Shown: piece by piece, positions 1 through 7,989 of the stretch
Position numbering within the stretch: the stretch's first letter is position 1
How the letters are laid out: each line of letters opens with the position of its first letter
Origin: a virus
Direction: 5' to 3' (one strand)
Virus record (IMG/VR): IMGVR_UViG_3300042691_003544
Location: 1 to 23,121 of that record
DNA: 23,121 nucleotides
Made by a program: the position numbers and the translations under genes
The notes under the pieces: generated by a model
The model's input: only the letters and a program-made list of their open reading frames with translations
Told to the model about the DNA's origin: nothing
The model's database searches: none

Positions 1-3000
1 GTTGACCAGCAGATGGATGACATACGTAAGAACCTTCCGTTCCGTCGTGAGTTCTCTGAGATTGATTCTTCTAAAGGTGCTATCGAGTGGCTGGCTGCAA
101 CTGTTGCCCAGCAAGGGCCGAACATCCTTGAGTCTATTGGTGTTGCTGCCGCAGGTTTCTTTGCAGGTGGCGCAGCAGGTGGCCCTTTGGGTGCGGCAGG
201 TGGTGCACTGGCTGGCTTGGCAGGTAAGACTGCCTTTAAACAATCTGTACTTGCGGCTCTAAAGAAACAAGCAGCAGGCGAAGCATTAGATGTAGCCGAA
301 ACTAAACTGCTTAAAGAAGCGGCTGGTATTGCAGGTGCAACAATTCTTAGTGTGGGTCAGAACTACGCCACTGGTGCGGCTGATATTTATGGTGAGTTCC
401 GTGAACAAGGGTCGGGTGCTGATGATACCAACGCTCGTCTTGCTGCTTTGTCAGGCGCAGTTCCTTATGCTGTTCTCGAATCTCTCCCTGAGTTCTTACT
501 AGCTTCCCGTCTATTTGGGCGTGGTGGTATATCTGCCAGAGGTGGTTCAACTAACCTACAAGATATTCAGGGTAAAACCTTTCTTGGGACACAAGCCCTT
601 CGTGGTGGGGAACTACTTAAGCGTGGAGCAAAAGGTGCGGCAGTCGGTGGTACGGCTGAAGGCTTAACTGAACTAGGACAAGAGAGTCTGCTTATTGGTA
701 TGACAGGTCAGGACTTTACTGATGCTGATGTACAGAACCGACTCCTTGAATCCTTTGCTGCTGGCTTTGGTGTTGGCGGTACGATTGGTGCTGGTGCTAA
801 CCTACGACGCGGCCCTATCGGCAAACAACCTACCAACTTGTTGAACCCCGGTCAGACTACTGACCCACCTCCTAGCGACTCTCGTGAAGTAACCCCCGTA
901 GGCGGGCCAACCCCCTCAGGTGGTATGGGCGCACGCCCTGACTTCGTAGCTGGTGCTGCTGGTGTTCGTGCATCTACGCCGGGCGACCGCATCTACACTG
1001 GCCCAGTTGAGCCTAATCAGTTTGGTGGTGCGCAAGGCGTGCTTGACCTCGGTGGTATCCCTGTGGCTGAAGCCAAGGCTCGCAGCATGCAAGGCAATGT
1101 GCAACCACAACGGGTATGGGATGTAACCACTCAATCGTGGCGTGAAGTTAGCCCACAAAGTGCAGATGAACAAGTAGCCGCTAATTTCCAACAGAAACGT
1201 CAGGAACGTATTCAATTAGGGCAATACATCAATACCCTAAAACAACAACTTGCTAATCCTAATCTGCCCCCACAAGAACGGGCTAATTTAGAACGGCAAT
1301 TAGCGCAAGCCACTGAAGCGATTCGTACTACGACTGATGTTATAGATACCACTCAGTTTGCTAGAGAGCAAGCTGGGCAACCGCCTATTCGGCAAGAATT
1401 ACCAACAGTAGACCCTAATCAGTTGGCGTTGCAGTTTGCGCCTCCTGCCCCTAGTGGCGTAGGCTTTACTGACCAAGCTGCACCTATCGTAAACCCTGCT
1501 ATGCAGCAGGCAATGAACTTGGCACAAAGCCGTGAAGCTCAGGTACAGGCGCAAGCCGCAGCCGCCGCACAGCGTGAGGCTGACCTTAATAAATTGCAGG
1601 CACGTGGGCAAGCCCAACGTCAACTGGATATTGCTCAGCAAGCTATGGACGCTGCCCGGGCACAACAGCAACAGACACAGCAACAACTTCCCACGAAACC
1701 GTTGCCTATACGGCAGCCTCAGCAGTTGGAATTGTTTAGCCGTAGAGAAGCTCCGCGCCCATCCCGTGCTGAAGGTCTACGTCGTGGTGTAGGTACGCAA
1801 CTTCCTGAGCCAACCACTCCCGTGTTGCCTGTCCAAGACTTGCGCCGTAGTCCTCAAGTGCCTTTGTTTACTCAACAAGGCGCTCCATCTATGGCCGCTC
1901 TCAGAAGTGCAGGGACACAGCAACAAGTTGTACCGACAGTGCAGCAAGGCGCTACCCAGATTGCTCCAACAGGTGCACCTGTTACTGCGGTTACTTCTGA
2001 AGCAGCTAAGGGTGTGGCACTTAAGAAAGAAAAGACTGGCACGATTACCTTTGAAGATGGCTCTATATATACAGGGCAATTGAAGAAGGGCGAGCCTAAT
2101 GGTCAAGGTACTTTGATTTATTCGGACACATCCACATACACGGGGCAGTTCAAGAACGGCAAACCACAAGGTAAAGGTCGTTTTGAAGATGCAGATGGTA
2201 CTGTATTCGATGGTCAATTTGAAGATGGAGATTTCATACAACCTGAGGTAACAGAAGATGCCACTCAAAAAGGGAAGCAGCAACAAGGTCGTCAGTCAAA
2301 ACGTAAGCAAGATAATGCGGGAGTACAAGGCGGGGGGCAAACTGGGCAACAGCCCACGACCCAAGAGCAAGGCGGCGGCACTGAAACAGGCGGTGGCGGC
2401 AAGTCTCTCAAACGCGGGAAGAAGCAAGAAGTAACTCCTGACGAGACACCCCCACCCCCACCTCCTAAGGGGGGTAAGGCTCTAAAGAAAGCCCCAGCAA
2501 AAAAGACTGAGGCTAAGGCTGAAGCCGCACCCAAAGCAGCCAAGTTGCAGAAAGGCCCGAGTGGTTTAGCTGCAATGGTTGGTCAGCTTATGGGTACTAC
2601 GGCTCAACCTACTGTGGTTGAGAGCCAGCCTAAACGTGGGCCGAATGAAGCCAGTGCTGAAACAGTCGCAGCCAATGAAGAACTCGACATGGCTATCGAG
2701 ACTGCTGAAACAACTAAGAACGCAGCAGCTTATGCCGAGGCTTTGTATGACATTGTGTCTGCTTATGTAACCTCAGCAGACCGTACGTATCTACGTAAGA
2801 CATCCACAAAGTTCTTGACAGATGAAGGTGGTGTACCGAAGGGCGACTATGTAGCTGCTCTGCGTGAGATTGCGTTGGATGAAGAATCCATCTCTCCAAA
2901 GTCACGCCTGTATGGTTTGTTGGCTGATGCTGGTTTGTTAAACGATGTGAACGTACTGAAGAACGTACGTGTCCCCGGCGCAAAAACTACACAAGAAGCA

Positions 3001-6000
3001 GTGGTAGGAGAAACCATTGGGGCAAACTCTGAGATTACTCCTGAAGAAAGCCTTGCTAACTTCATTGATTCCAATCCACAATGGCCTAACCGCAAGCAGT
3101 TGGTTGACAAACTCAAACAACTCTACGGCAAGATTGACGATGATAATTTTCTTGTCGGTAAACGTGGTCGCATCAAAGACTTCTTTGACACTAATGGGAA
3201 TCCCTTAGTAACTCAACCTGCTGGTACGTCTTACTTTATCCCTAATACTGTGGCTGAAGAAAAGACTACCAAGTCTGATTTCGTAGCTAAGCATGAAACC
3301 GCCCGTAAAGAATTGCGGGACTTGGAAGATACTGAAGACCAGACCACACTGGATGACCTTCAGTTTGACCCATTCTATGACCGCAAGCCAAACAGTGATG
3401 ATGACTGGCGTGCTTTCCGTTCTAATGGTAAACCCTTAACGCCAATGAAAGTTGGCCCACTGCGTTTGTTTGCGGCTCGGGTTATCTCTAAGTATGCTCG
3501 TAAGCCACGGGTATCTGTGTTTGCGAATATCCAAGACATGAAGCGTAGCAACCCTGCCCTGTTTGAAGCAGCAGCAAAGGCTCGTAAAGATGGTGACATC
3601 GAGGCGGTCAATGCCGCAGGTATGGCTTGGGGTGACAACGTGGTTCTGTTTGCAGACCTCATCCACTCTGAAGAACACGCCCGCTTTATCATTGCCCATG
3701 AAACTCTTGGGCACGTAGGTTTCCGTGGATTGTTTAGCAATCAAGCACTTAACAAGATTCTCCAGTTCGTTGCTGATGCTGACCCTCATCTCACAAATGA
3801 GGCGATTGTCTACGCAAACGGCAAAGGAATCCCATTCCTCGAAGCAGTCGAGGAGGTGTTGGCAGACCGTGCTGCTGCCATTGACAATAACACAATCCTT
3901 AGGTTTTGGAACTGGTTAAAAGACCAATTGAATAAACTTGGCTTGTCGTTCAACGATGACGCAGCCCGCTACCTTATCAGCCTATCACGCAAGTACGTGC
4001 GTCAGGGCGTTGGGCGTAGTGAAGTCAACACCTCTGGTCTCTATAAAGAAATCAACGAGGCACTGGCTACTGAGCAGTCCGACATTGAAGTATTACGCTT
4101 TGCCCAGTCTGCCGCCCAAGGTTCTGCTAACTTTGCACAGAACTTTGTAAACCGCAACTTTGCCGTTTATGGAAACCTTGAGCGTTCCATCCGTGACATT
4201 GTGGATGCTTCACAGAAGTCTGCCGAAATGCGCAAGCAAGGCAAGGGTGTCCTTGCCAACGTACGTAACGTGGTTCAAAAGGTTCTTGATGGTATTCAAA
4301 CCCAAGACAACATGGCTCGTAAGTCTAAGGGCTACTTCAAAATCTTTAGGTTGCTGCAAGACCAAGCGGCTCGTCAAACTGAACTTAAGACCCAGTATGC
4401 TGAGATAACCAATATTGCCCATGAAGCTAAGTTCCTTGGGTTTGGTGAGGGTTTAACGTCTGAGCAAAGTGTCCGTGCCGGTGAGTTGATGGCATACGCT
4501 ACGCTGTTTAAGATGAACCAATTGTCGGATAACGCTATTGCCAAGATGGACAATATCGTGTTCTATGACCCGAACAATCTTGAGCCTATACCTAAGATAA
4601 ACGTAGACGGATTTAACCAGTTAAAACAGGTTGGTCGTATGACTCCTGAGGAATTCCGTAGCGGCTTTAAAGTTCAGCAGGGTACTGAAGAACGCCCAAT
4701 GACTGAGGAATATAAAGCGGAACTGGCTGCGCAACGGGACAAAGAGCTTGCCATTATGGAAGCAGGTAGGAATCGGGAACTTGCCCGCCTGCAAAAGAAA
4801 CTGGCTGCGGCTACTAATGAGGAAGCCAAGCTAGAGTTTGAGCTACGCATTAAGCGTCTTGAGAGTAGATACGCCAGTAATGTAGAAAGTACCAAGCGGT
4901 ACTACACCAAGCAGATGAACGATAAGACCTATGAGGCTCCTCGTCTAACGGATTCTCTTGACTGGTTTAAAGATGTTGATGGTACTGTAATCGAGAATGA
5001 CGATGGTACTGTGACCTACACAGGTACAAGTATTGAGTATCAGGTGTACTTGCAGTTCCACGAGGCTATCTCTAAATCGGCTGCGGATGTATTGATTGGT
5101 AAGTATCTTGGTGCTATCCACGAGCAAGCCCGTGCCATTACCTCTGGTGTTGGGGCATCGTTTAACCAGTCGCTAACTGCACAGGAAACTAAGTTCATTG
5201 AGGACATAGTTGAGCAGTACGACCGCATGCGGCTAAAGGATTCAGGCTACAAGAACAACCGTTTTGAGATGAGCGAGTCTGCCCAAGAGGATGCTAACGA
5301 GTGGCTACGTATGAAGTTTGCCCGTGCGTTCTATACCGACCTTGCCCTGACTGACCTAGCCAAAATGGTCGAAGGCTATACCCCCGCAGAGGTTGATACG
5401 ATTGTCCGTGGTATGCGCAAGAAACTTCGTACCAAGGTAGACCCTGACATAGATGACATTCGGGATAGTTCTATTTGGGCATTAGAGCATCGCATTGAAG
5501 AACGGGCAATGTTTGCCGCCTCTATTAATGATGACCAGTTCTACGCCAAACGAACCATTGCTGGTTCGTACGTTCCCCTCATCCGTGAAGGCGATTGGCA
5601 AATTCGTATTCAAGCCTACAAGACTGTCAACGGACAAGAAGTTCCTATTAAGTTACGCCAAGGGCAACAAGACTCTTTGTTCTACGGCAAGACCGCTAAC
5701 CAAAAAGATGCCCAAGAAGTTCAAGACGAACTGGACAACCTCTTTTCAGGTGAGCATGACATGCGTGATGCCGATGGCAATATGCAGACAGTTAAGTTGC
5801 GAGCCATTGCATCGGTTGCAGAACAGACTCCCGCCCTTGTGGACATCCTCCACTACGACGAGGTAATGTATTCGCTCAGTCGTTTGGGTATCAACATTAC
5901 CCCTGAGCAACGGACAACCTTGGTTCAGAAACTTACTGCACAGAACACTCGTGCCCGTGCAAACCTGAAGCGTTCGGGCGTACCGGGCTGGGATAAAGAT

Positions 6001-7989
6001 GTTGTCAAGAGTGCGTCGGCTTACCTAGAACAGCAGGCATATACCGCAGCTAATAAAGAGTTCCGCCATCAGTACGATGAAGTGCTTGATAACCCGTTCA
6101 ACTGGCAAGGTGACCCTACCCGTTTAGAAGAACTGCGGGTTAAATGGGAAAGCAGTACTGGCGAGGCTAAAGAGATTGCCGCTCGGGAGTATTTCCAAGA
6201 GAAGTTCTACTACGATAATGCCGTTGAAGTTATTGATGGTAAGCGGGTGGAGCGTGGCAACTGGTACAAAGAACGTGCCAAGTCTTTGCTTGACTGGAAA
6301 GAATCCACGGGTGACATCGTTCATGCTGACGACATTTGGACAAACAACGAATGGTCTGTTGCGGCTCGTACTTGGGCGGCTATTGCCCAACTTGGTGGCT
6401 CTATTGCTACTGGTGTCACACAGATGCTTTCGTTGCCAACCAACTCATGGGCGTACCTCTCAGCCTTTAATCCTAAGAATGGATTTGGCTTAGGGTTAGG
6501 CGCAGGTCGTGCCGCCACATTGTTATTTGACTATGGTCGCAAAGCAGGTAGCTTCCGTTACGCCAATCTAGACTACATCAAAGGACAGATTAAAGAACTC
6601 CAAGATAGTGGTGAAGATAGGAACAAGGATGGGCTGACGTTTGCCGAACTGAACTTCCTCCAAACCATGACGGAAGAACAACGCCTTGATGCCGCACAAT
6701 TTAACGCTTTGACTGGTACTAGCCGTGGTCGTAAGATTACTGGCAATCCAACCGCACAAAAAGTTATTCAGGTATGGATGCTTCCATTCAGTTATTCCGA
6801 ACAATTTAACCGCCGCACCACACTCCTAGCAGCATATCGTGGTGAGTATGACCGTCAACGTGCTGCTGGCCTAGCCCACAATGAGGCTGACCTTGCCGCC
6901 CGTGCTGCGGCATCTCGTGCCGTTGATGCTACCCAAGGGGATTACGCTCAGTACAACCGCCCTGCTTTCTTCCGTGGTGGACTCCAGTCGTTCATCTATA
7001 TGTACAAGCAGTACCCTATCTTGATGGTTCAGTTGCTAAAGAACATGAACTATGAAGGTCGTATCATCATGCTCGGGTCGTTGCTCTTGTTATCCGGAGT
7101 ACGGGGCATACCGGGTTCTGACGACATCTTGGACATTGTTGATGGTATTGCTCAGCGCCTTGGCTTGAAGGTTGGCTCGATTGAAAAAGAGTTTGCTCGT
7201 CTGACCCGTAGCGTATTCGGTGATGAACTAGCGGCAGAGATTAACCCAATCATCATGCGTGGTTTGCTTGACCACTTCACTGGTCTTTCATTCTCGAATC
7301 GCTTAGGTCTTGGGGACATCATCCCCGGAACTGGCTTGCTTAAACCATCGGCTACCAAGCAGGAGATTCTGCGTGAGGTGGTAAATATTGCAGGTGCACC
7401 AACGTCTTTCTTGGCAGGTGCGTTTGAGTTTACGTTTAACACATTGCCTGCGGTAGCCACAGGGCGTAAAGGACTAAGTTCCTTAGCGACTGACTCTCCC
7501 TTTACGGCTATTAAGAACTTGGGTACTGCGTTTAAGTTTTACGACACAGGTGCGATTGTCGACACCAAGGGATATGTTGTAGCGCAGAACGCCACCACTT
7601 GGGAAATACTTGGTAAGGCACTAGGTTGGTATCCATCCCGTGCTCAGGCACAGATGGACTGGTTGATGGCTGACTCCCAAGAACAAGCATACATGTCTAT
7701 GATTAAGACTGAAGCTACCCGCCAAGCAGTTGCCGCTCGATTGTCAGGCGATGTGGATGCTGAGAAGGATGTCAAGGAATACATCAAGTCATGGAACGAA
7801 AGCACCAAAGGGACACGCCTAGAGATTCGCAACTTTGAGAAAGGTTTAAATCAAGCCTTCCGTGAAGCCAAGAAACCACTAGCGTTACGTGCCCTCAAGT
7901 CCTCCGCTAAAGGTGGCAGAGCAGAAGCTAAGGAGTTGCTACGCATTTACGGCGTAGACGAGGAAACCCTTTCGGGCATCCCCGACTAA
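1..7989 (+). CDS. Giant multidomain phage protein (polyvalent/PLxRFG-like), 5' partial
   Basis: The frame is open from base 1, so the Met at base 13 is probably internal and the true start lies to the left; at least 2662 residues are visible. Numbered from that Met: a Gly/Ala-rich N-terminal part; Gln/Ala-rich low-complexity sequence at about 390-640; MORN-like repeats at about 677-741; a Pro/Lys-rich spacer with six prolines near 813; a zincin-like HETLGHVGFRG with H1229, E1230 and H1234; a charged coiled coil at about 1575-1637; and a C-terminal segment from about 2316 (RPAFFRGGLQSFIYMYKQYP) followed by a hydrophobic stretch. Giant proteins with this layout in podovirus-like phages and prophages are known as polyvalent, DarB-like or PLxRFG proteins. 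They are packaged in the virion and are thought to enter the host with the DNA and protect or remodel it. Virion location and protective role are inferred from family. The gene faces all others in the window. Confidence 0.8.
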   Translation, partial: VDQQMDDIRKNLPFRREFSEIDSSKGAIEWLAATVAQQGPNILESIGVAAAGFFAGGAAGGPLGAAGGALAGLAGKTAFKQSVLAALKKQAAGEALDVAETKLLKEAAGIAGATILSVGQNYATGAADIYGEFREQGSGADDTNARLAALSGAVPYAVLESLPEFLLASRLFGRGGISARGGSTNLQDIQGKTFLGTQALRGGELLKRGAKGAAVGGTAEGLTELGQESLLIGMTGQDFTDADVQNRLLESFAAGFGVGGTIGAGANLRRGPIGKQPTNLLNPGQTTDPPPSDSREVTPVGGPTPSGGMGARPDFVAGAAGVRASTPGDRIYTGPVEPNQFGGAQGVLDLGGIPVAEAKARSMQGNVQPQRVWDVTTQSWREVSPQSADEQVAANFQQKRQERIQLGQYINTLKQQLANPNLPPQERANLERQLAQATEAIRTTTDVIDTTQFAREQAGQPPIRQELPTVDPNQLALQFAPPAPSGVGFTDQAAPIVNPAMQQAMNLAQSREAQVQAQAAAAAQREADLNKLQARGQAQRQLDIAQQAMDAARAQQQQTQQQLPTKPLPIRQPQQLELFSRREAPRPSRAEGLRRGVGTQLPEPTTPVLPVQDLRRSPQVPLFTQQGAPSMAALRSAGTQQQVVPTVQQGATQIAPTGAPVTAVTSEAAKGVALKKEKTGTITFEDGSIYTGQLKKGEPNGQGTLIYSDTSTYTGQFKNGKPQGKGRFEDADGTVFDGQFEDGDFIQPEVTEDATQKGKQQQGRQSKRKQDNAGVQGGGQTGQQPTTQEQGGGTETGGGGKSLKRGKKQEVTPDETPPPPPPKGGKALKKAPAKKTEAKAEAAPKAAKLQKGPSGLAAMVGQLMGTTAQPTVVESQPKRGPNEASAETVAANEELDMAIETAETTKNAAAYAEALYDIVSAYVTSADRTYLRKTSTKFLTDEGGVPKGDYVAALREIALDEESISPKSRLYGLLADAGLLNDVNVLKNVRVPGAKTTQEAVVGETIGANSEITPEESLANFIDSNPQWPNRKQLVDKLKQLYGKIDDDNFLVGKRGRIKDFFDTNGNPLVTQPAGTSYFIPNTVAEEKTTKSDFVAKHETARKELRDLEDTEDQTTLDDLQFDPFYDRKPNSDDDWRAFRSNGKPLTPMKVGPLRLFAARVISKYARKPRVSVFANIQDMKRSNPALFEAAAKARKDGDIEAVNAAGMAWGDNVVLFADLIHSEEHARFIIAHETLGHVGFRGLFSNQALNKILQFVADADPHLTNEAIVYANGKGIPFLEAVEEVLADRAAAIDNNTILRFWNWLKDQLNKLGLSFNDDAARYLISLSRKYVRQGVGRSEVNTSGLYKEINEALATEQSDIEVLRFAQSAAQGSANFAQNFVNRNFAVYGNLERSIRDIVDASQKSAEMRKQGKGVLANVRNVVQKVLDGIQTQDNMARKSKGYFKIFRLLQDQAARQTELKTQYAEITNIAHEAKFLGFGEGLTSEQSVRAGELMAYATLFKMNQLSDNAIAKMDNIVFYDPNNLEPIPKINVDGFNQLKQVGRMTPEEFRSGFKVQQGTEERPMTEEYKAELAAQRDKELAIMEAGRNRELARLQKKLAAATNEEAKLEFELRIKRLESRYASNVESTKRYYTKQMNDKTYEAPRLTDSLDWFKDVDGTVIENDDGTVTYTGTSIEYQVYLQFHEAISKSAADVLIGKYLGAIHEQARAITSGVGASFNQSLTAQETKFIEDIVEQYDRMRLKDSGYKNNRFEMSESAQEDANEWLRMKFARAFYTDLALTDLAKMVEGYTPAEVDTIVRGMRKKLRTKVDPDIDDIRDSSIWALEHRIEERAMFAASINDDQFYAKRTIAGSYVPLIREGDWQIRIQAYKTVNGQEVPIKLRQGQQDSLFYGKTANQKDAQEVQDELDNLFSGEHDMRDADGNMQTVKLRAIASVAEQTPALVDILHYDEVMYSLSRLGINITPEQRTTLVQKLTAQNTRARANLKRSGVPGWDKDVVKSASAYLEQQAYTAANKEFRHQYDEVLDNPFNWQGDPTRLEELRVKWESSTGEAKEIAAREYFQEKFYYDNAVEVIDGKRVERGNWYKERAKSLLDWKESTGDIVHADDIWTNNEWSVAARTWAAIAQLGGSIATGVTQMLSLPTNSWAYLSAFNPKNGFGLGLGAGRAATLLFDYGRKAGSFRYANLDYIKGQIKELQDSGEDRNKDGLTFAELNFLQTMTEEQRLDAAQFNALTGTSRGRKITGNPTAQKVIQVWMLPFSYSEQFNRRTTLLAAYRGEYDRQRAAGLAHNEADLAARAAASRAVDATQGDYAQYNRPAFFRGGLQSFIYMYKQYPILMVQLLKNMNYEGRIIMLGSLLLLSGVRGIPGSDDILDIVDGIAQRLGLKVGSIEKEFARLTRSVFGDELAAEINPIIMRGLLDHFTGLSFSNRLGLGDIIPGTGLLKPSATKQEILREVVNIAGAPTSFLAGAFEFTFNTLPAVATGRKGLSSLATDSPFTAIKNLGTAFKFYDTGAIVDTKGYVVAQNATTWEILGKALGWYPSRAQAQMDWLMADSQEQAYMSMIKTEATRQAVAARLSGDVDAEKDVKEYIKSWNESTKGTRLEIRNFEKGLNQAFREAKKPLALRALKSSAKGGRAEAKELLRIYGVDEETLSGIPD
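2041..2235 (+). repeat. MORN-type repeat block inside the giant phage protein
   Basis: Three successive units of about 23 residues are visible (about residues 677-741 counted from the Met at base 13). Each has the pattern F-x-DG-x-x-Y/F-x-GQ-x-x-x-G: FEDGSIYTGQLKKGEPNGQG, then a unit with TYTGQFKNGKPQGKG, then one with TVFDGQFEDGDF. This matches the MORN consensus (YxGxxxxGxxxGxG), a beta-hairpin repeat known from membrane- and lipid-associated proteins and from many bacterial proteins. The block sits between low-complexity, Gln- and Lys-rich segments, so it is probably an independent inserted module. Confidence 0.8.

Follow-up and report, generated by a model that had tools for sequence, protein, structure and literature searches.

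The giant virion protein encoded at the start of the window (the whole stretch of DNA analyzed here, the 23,121-base virus record IMGVR_UViG_3300042691_003544) carries a single in-frame cassette of MORN repeats, which the ancestor of one phage clade appears to have acquired into a linker of this probably ejected, polyvalent-type protein. In our reading, the cassette is most likely a protein-docking or self-association module, and we give this account as a whole a probability of roughly 0.5. MORN repeats, PLxRFG giant proteins, and polyvalent proteins are each already known; our literature searches returned no report of MORN within an internal virion protein. MORN repeats are frequent in cells and rare in known phages. 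Similar proteins with and without the block provide a natural insertion/deletion comparison, and the role of the cassette in infection is directly testable.

The window holds the 3' part of the giant gene, 2,662 codons in length, with the 5' end cut by the start of the contig (Table 1). Relative to the protein of contig L003, approximately 172 residues are absent at the N terminus, and full-length relatives in IMG/VR are about 2,710 to 2,970 aa long. The NCBIfam PLxRFG model (NF032893) matched residues 2207 to 2620 of the protein at 151.4 bits against a cutoff of 100. MORN is the sole Pfam family matched, and Pfam recognized no further enzymatic domain alongside MORN, the HEXXXH motif, and PLxRFG.

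The genomic context is that of a late structural gene. In relatives, the gene directly 5' of the giant gene encodes an SLT transglycosylase internal virion protein, and the same run of genes also holds an internal-virion-protein match (phrog_511) and tape-measure-like matches; terminase and tail fiber genes were found elsewhere in the genome of one relative. The giant gene forms the end of this podovirus-like structural module, and 3' of it, on the opposite strand, lie genes for a DUF927 primase/helicase-like protein, an SNF2-type helicase, an exonuclease, and a DNA polymerase. The giant protein is encoded together with virion components, and we infer that it is probably packaged and ejected into the bacterial host. 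The original prediction had placed MORN repeats, flanked by low-complexity spacers, in a giant virion protein of the polyvalent type, a description supported by the PLxRFG match, the HEXXXH motif, the late-structural context, and the adjoining SLT protein. The length of the SLT protein differs by clade, at 705 to 765 aa in phages with MORN versus 867 to 1021 aa in L008, L011, L017, and L020 (measured from stop to stop; gene coordinates compared, L004:7365-9473 versus L020:6376-9426), and the SLT domain of the L020 neighbor protein is scarcely recognizable.

Table 1. Features of the giant virion protein gene, in window coordinates.
Feature	Position	Strand	Basis or remark
Giant PLxRFG-family polyvalent-type virion protein gene	1..7989	+	ORF; NF032893 above cutoff; full-length relatives
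QLELF, conserved, copy 1 (beta-clamp consensus QLxLF)	1723..1737	+	Sequence motif
QVPLF, second conserved QxxLF motif	1855..1869	+	Sequence motif
MORN insertion/deletion cassette, approximate, ~70-75 residues	2032..2256	+	Alignments against MORN-less relatives
MORN unit 1, K678-N700	2032..2100	+	Structural definition; beta-hairpin in model
MORN unit 2, G701-Q723	2101..2169	+	Pfam, structural definition, model
MORN unit 3, G724-F745, 22 residues	2170..2235	+	Pfam, structural definition, model
Conserved region with HETLGH (HEXXXH, 3697-3714) and downstream EEVLAD; candidate zincin-like metallopeptidase	3436..4035	+	
C-terminal PLxRFG (tail-700) domain	6619..7860	+	Common to giant structural proteins of Pseudomonas F116-type phages

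Several lines of evidence indicate that the block is a genuine three-repeat MORN domain, with its fold taken from a structure model. We delimited the units according to Sajko et al. (PMC7725318), whose structure-based definition of a 23-residue unit places GxG at positions 1 to 3, LxY at 5 to 7, G at 10, and YEGEW at 13 to 17. The phage units depart from it in places: the first G is absent from unit 1, position 10 of unit 2 is Thr, and Leu or Phe replaces the Trp of YEGEW. The Pfam MORN model (PF02493) scored 41.2 bits on the whole protein against a cutoff of 22.5 (E 1.1e-10), and a six-frame search gave two matches above cutoff, at 31.5 and 22.8 bits; there are only two matches for three units because the Pfam model is out of phase with the units. 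In a phmmer search of the PDB, the block matched Plasmodium MORN1 at 9e-25. An AlphaFold model, built for a 91-residue construct with seven homologues, contains seven strands, corresponding to three hairpins plus one, with mean confidence of 90 to 93 for 10-residue blocks across residues 11 to 70 of the construct. The best PDB match to this model found by Foldseek was Trypanosoma brucei MORN1 (6t4r; TM 0.72, rmsd 1.0, 69 columns), and TM scores to solved MORN proteins reached 0.73. A chance or low-complexity match was rejected, given these E-values and the structure model.

The three MORN units had been predicted at 2041 to 2235, which corresponds to residues 681 to 745 counted from the first base of the window, or 677 to 741 counted from the ATG at base 13. 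This range lies inside the block at 2032 to 2235, and Pfam, the PDB sequence match, and the structure model all agree with it. The MORN match is significant and the predicted structure contains beta-hairpin repeats, so neither of the two outcomes that would have counted against the prediction was observed.

Although the surrounding protein is shared more widely, the MORN block is present in only some of its relatives. The survey of homologues that had been proposed for the same insert found MORN in 12 IMG/VR contigs (L003, L004, L005, L006, L007, L009, L010, L012, L013, L016, L018, and L019) and no MORN in 10 (L008, L011, L015, L017, L020, L049, L050, L051, L070, and L225). Alignment of the two groups revealed a clean in-frame presence/absence, with junctions after LKK and before ATQKGKQQQ, at a site in the linker between the N-terminal region and the metallopeptidase-like region. 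An assembly chimera was rejected, since the 12 contigs share the insert at one site. A maximum-likelihood tree of 14 rows, computed from columns outside the linker, requires one change and supports the MORN group at 100/100. Because the deepest (outgroup) clade is without MORN, gain is a simpler reading than loss, and on the best reading the cassette was gained once, in the common ancestor of the MORN-bearing clade. An older gain with subsequent loss is the less probable alternative on this single 14-row tree. The G+C content of the MORN block falls in the 4th percentile among windows of the giant gene, which is compatible with a foreign origin.

In deeper relatives, the linker has other content. 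L049 has the longer insert, of more than 100 residues, located at the MORN site before the metallopeptidase region, and neither Pfam nor a PDB sequence search gave a significant match to it; the insert of L050 and L051 is shorter and charged.

Purifying selection acts on the MORN block at about the level seen in the rest of the protein, and more strongly than on the flanking linkers. Values of dN/dS are 0.05 to 0.09 in MORN versus 0.10 to 0.46 in the flanking linkers, and L003 and L006 are 65% identical in MORN versus 42% in the upstream linker. Many positions of the block are invariant among relatives. These data bear on the idea that the block is a passive spacer, a stable beta-stack that acts as a folded bead parting two halves of the linker, without a partner. 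The disordered surroundings and the different content at this site in other relatives would fit a spacer; however, across about 30% divergence MORN has changed about as little as the folded parts of the protein, with its many invariant positions, and a second phage family also acquired a MORN array. We therefore judge a passive spacer to be quite unlikely.

The second family came from a scan with a generic MORN sequence, which found L157 (L157:6246-9920), a giant virion protein with six to seven MORN units in a linker (L157/L159; IMG/VR 3300037502_000223). The array is followed by an HExxH region, which matches the metallopeptidase part of the N4 virion RNA polymerase family, and a DNA ejection protein gene adjoins the L157 gene. 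MORN is present in 1 of the 58 loci of this family, some of the others ending before the site, and the nearest full-length relative, L161, is cleanly without it. No homology between the two MORN-bearing giant families was detected outside MORN, and hhalign of the N-terminal regions detected no deep homology between them (probability 3.7%). MORN was apparently acquired twice independently, in the same kind of linker, and two acquisitions in like sites argue for a function.

We found few other MORN repeats in phages. The window DNA had no match among cultured phages, and only the C terminus of the giant protein matched them, with no cultured relative containing the MORN block. Searched against cultured phage records, the block had a single match, a short MORN protein of a Streptococcus prophage; MORN queries matched 3 of 50,697 records. 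The cellular MORN loci that we inspected contained no giant virion protein and mostly encoded MORN-dominated or secreted-type proteins, and no source emerged from them when we attempted to trace the cassette to the nearest cellular MORN.

The original prediction had proposed that the block helps the protein meet a host membrane or lipid during DNA entry, and our analysis argues against this role. A version in which MORN binds inner-membrane lipids while the protein threads into the cell rests on the MORN name, for which junctophilin provides a precedent, and could draw on the co-purification of Trypanosoma brucei MORN1 (TbMORN1) with phosphatidylethanolamine (PMC7725318). However, the MORN core is acidic (pI about 4.3 for the block; across three divergent members that we checked, pI 4.2 to 4.5 and net charge -4 to -7), TbMORN1 did not bind membranes or vesicles, and the authors of that study warn against inferring lipid binding from MORN (PMC7725318). 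In addition, sister phages manage without the block. Since these close relatives have the whole protein without it, the block is, as far as the sequences indicate, dispensable for DNA entry as such. Overall, we consider lipid binding during entry improbable.

Protein docking is preferred over a membrane role because the block is acidic and because MORN1 makes protein-protein contacts without binding membranes. MORN repeats are described as protein-protein interaction modules in the TbMORN1 study, which also cites a MORN4-Myo3a groove complex (PMC7725318). In the mechanism that we propose, the ancestor of one phage clade would have gained a MORN cassette in a flexible linker of the giant virion protein, and the protein would be ejected into the host with its MORN block. 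The aromatic groove of the beta-hairpin stack may then grip a partner peptide or protein, which would be met inside the virion or, with higher probability, once the protein has been ejected into the host. Counting against docking, three repeats are few compared to MORN proteins with documented groove binding, and folding stability alone could explain the conservation of MORN.

Alternatively, MORN may act within the virion, where it would help the giant protein to pack, multimerize, or become ordered, whether in the capsid or in the ejection apparatus; pairing with the SLT protein is one way in which it could do so. MORN1 proteins dimerize and oligomerize (PMC7725318), and the SLT neighbor is shorter in phages with MORN than in the MORN-less L008, L011, L017, and L020 (705 to 765 versus 867 to 1021 aa); both points speak for such a role. 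Core assembly must nevertheless work without MORN in sister phages, and the MORN-less L050 and L051 have neighbors of 608 to 628 aa, so SLT length does not track MORN throughout. We regard a role confined to the virion as possible, albeit doubtful.

The same linker contains two QxxLF motifs, both located approximately 160 to 310 bases 5' of the MORN block. Two such motifs are present in every relative that covers the linker, and L006 has five copies; we noted the motifs in L006, L008, L015, and L051, and several relatives have exactly QLSLF, which has been used as the full beta-clamp-binding consensus (PMC4549789). In the nine representatives compared, Q1 and F5 never change, Leu or Met occupies position 4, and positions 2 and 3 are variable; the second copy in L225 is QGILF. 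Local shuffling of the linker gave an expectation of 0.01 to 0.04 copies. In the 58 loci of the L157 family, there was no excess of QxxLF (1 versus 1.8 expected), and we therefore rejected the idea that giant virion proteins generally have this motif.

The motifs are a sequence signal that matches the bacterial sliding-clamp-binding consensus, and they may bind DnaN. Taken with MORN, they suggest that the linker may serve as a docking strip for host proteins, an accessory-module region that would contain MORN and the two QxxLF motifs here and other content in other lineages. We tentatively propose a more specific scenario, which we think rather unlikely as it stands, in which the QxxLF motifs in the linker of the ejected protein would hold the host beta sliding clamp (DnaN) while MORN grips a second host protein, so that the polyvalent protein would be tethered to the replication machinery of the host from the very start of infection. 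If the clamp-like motifs are real, host replication would be a target of genome-delivered proteins.

Downstream of the linker, the HEXXXH region is a candidate zincin-like metallopeptidase of the polyvalent type. HETLGH and EEVLAD are invariant in eight relatives, and the HEXXXH form occurs in some polyvalent-protein metallopeptidases (PMC5512222, Iyer et al. 2017). The region had no Pfam match. Its structure model was of low confidence (pLDDT 58), too poor for a structure search, and we dropped the attempt to identify a metallopeptidase fold by that route.

Compared to known systems, the block resembles MORN1 of trypanosomes and apicomplexans (6t4r, 6t4d, and 6t6q) and MORN4 (6jle) in its beta-hairpin fold and consensus, with 25 to 37% identity and rmsd of about 1.0 to 1.8 over 65 to 73 columns; however, those are free-standing eukaryotic proteins with many repeats, whereas the window block has three units and is inserted in a phage protein. 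SETD7 likewise has another residue in place of the Trp of YEGEW (PMC7725318). The PLxRFG giant proteins of F116, H66, and related Pseudomonas phages, annotated as structural or internal virion proteins, match the C-terminal 400 residues above cutoff, but the alignment is confined to the C terminus, and it is the family of the window to which the N-terminal half, the linker, and MORN are particular. The MORN block had no match in the records of PLxRFG Pseudomonas phages, and the long ORFs that we checked in two PLxRFG phages, 8P and Y11, contained no QxxLF motifs. Polyvalent proteins (PMC5512222) are similarly giant and multi-region, with a late-gene context and an HEXXXH metallopeptidase motif; in contrast, the main text of that paper mentions no MORN, and the window protein is assignable by Pfam for MORN only. 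The L157/L159 protein differs in having six to seven repeats and HExxH in place of HEXXXH, and it has neither a QxxLF motif nor detectable homology outside MORN, yet it too has a MORN array in a low-complexity linker 5' of a metallopeptidase and is encoded by the last gene of the structural run shown.
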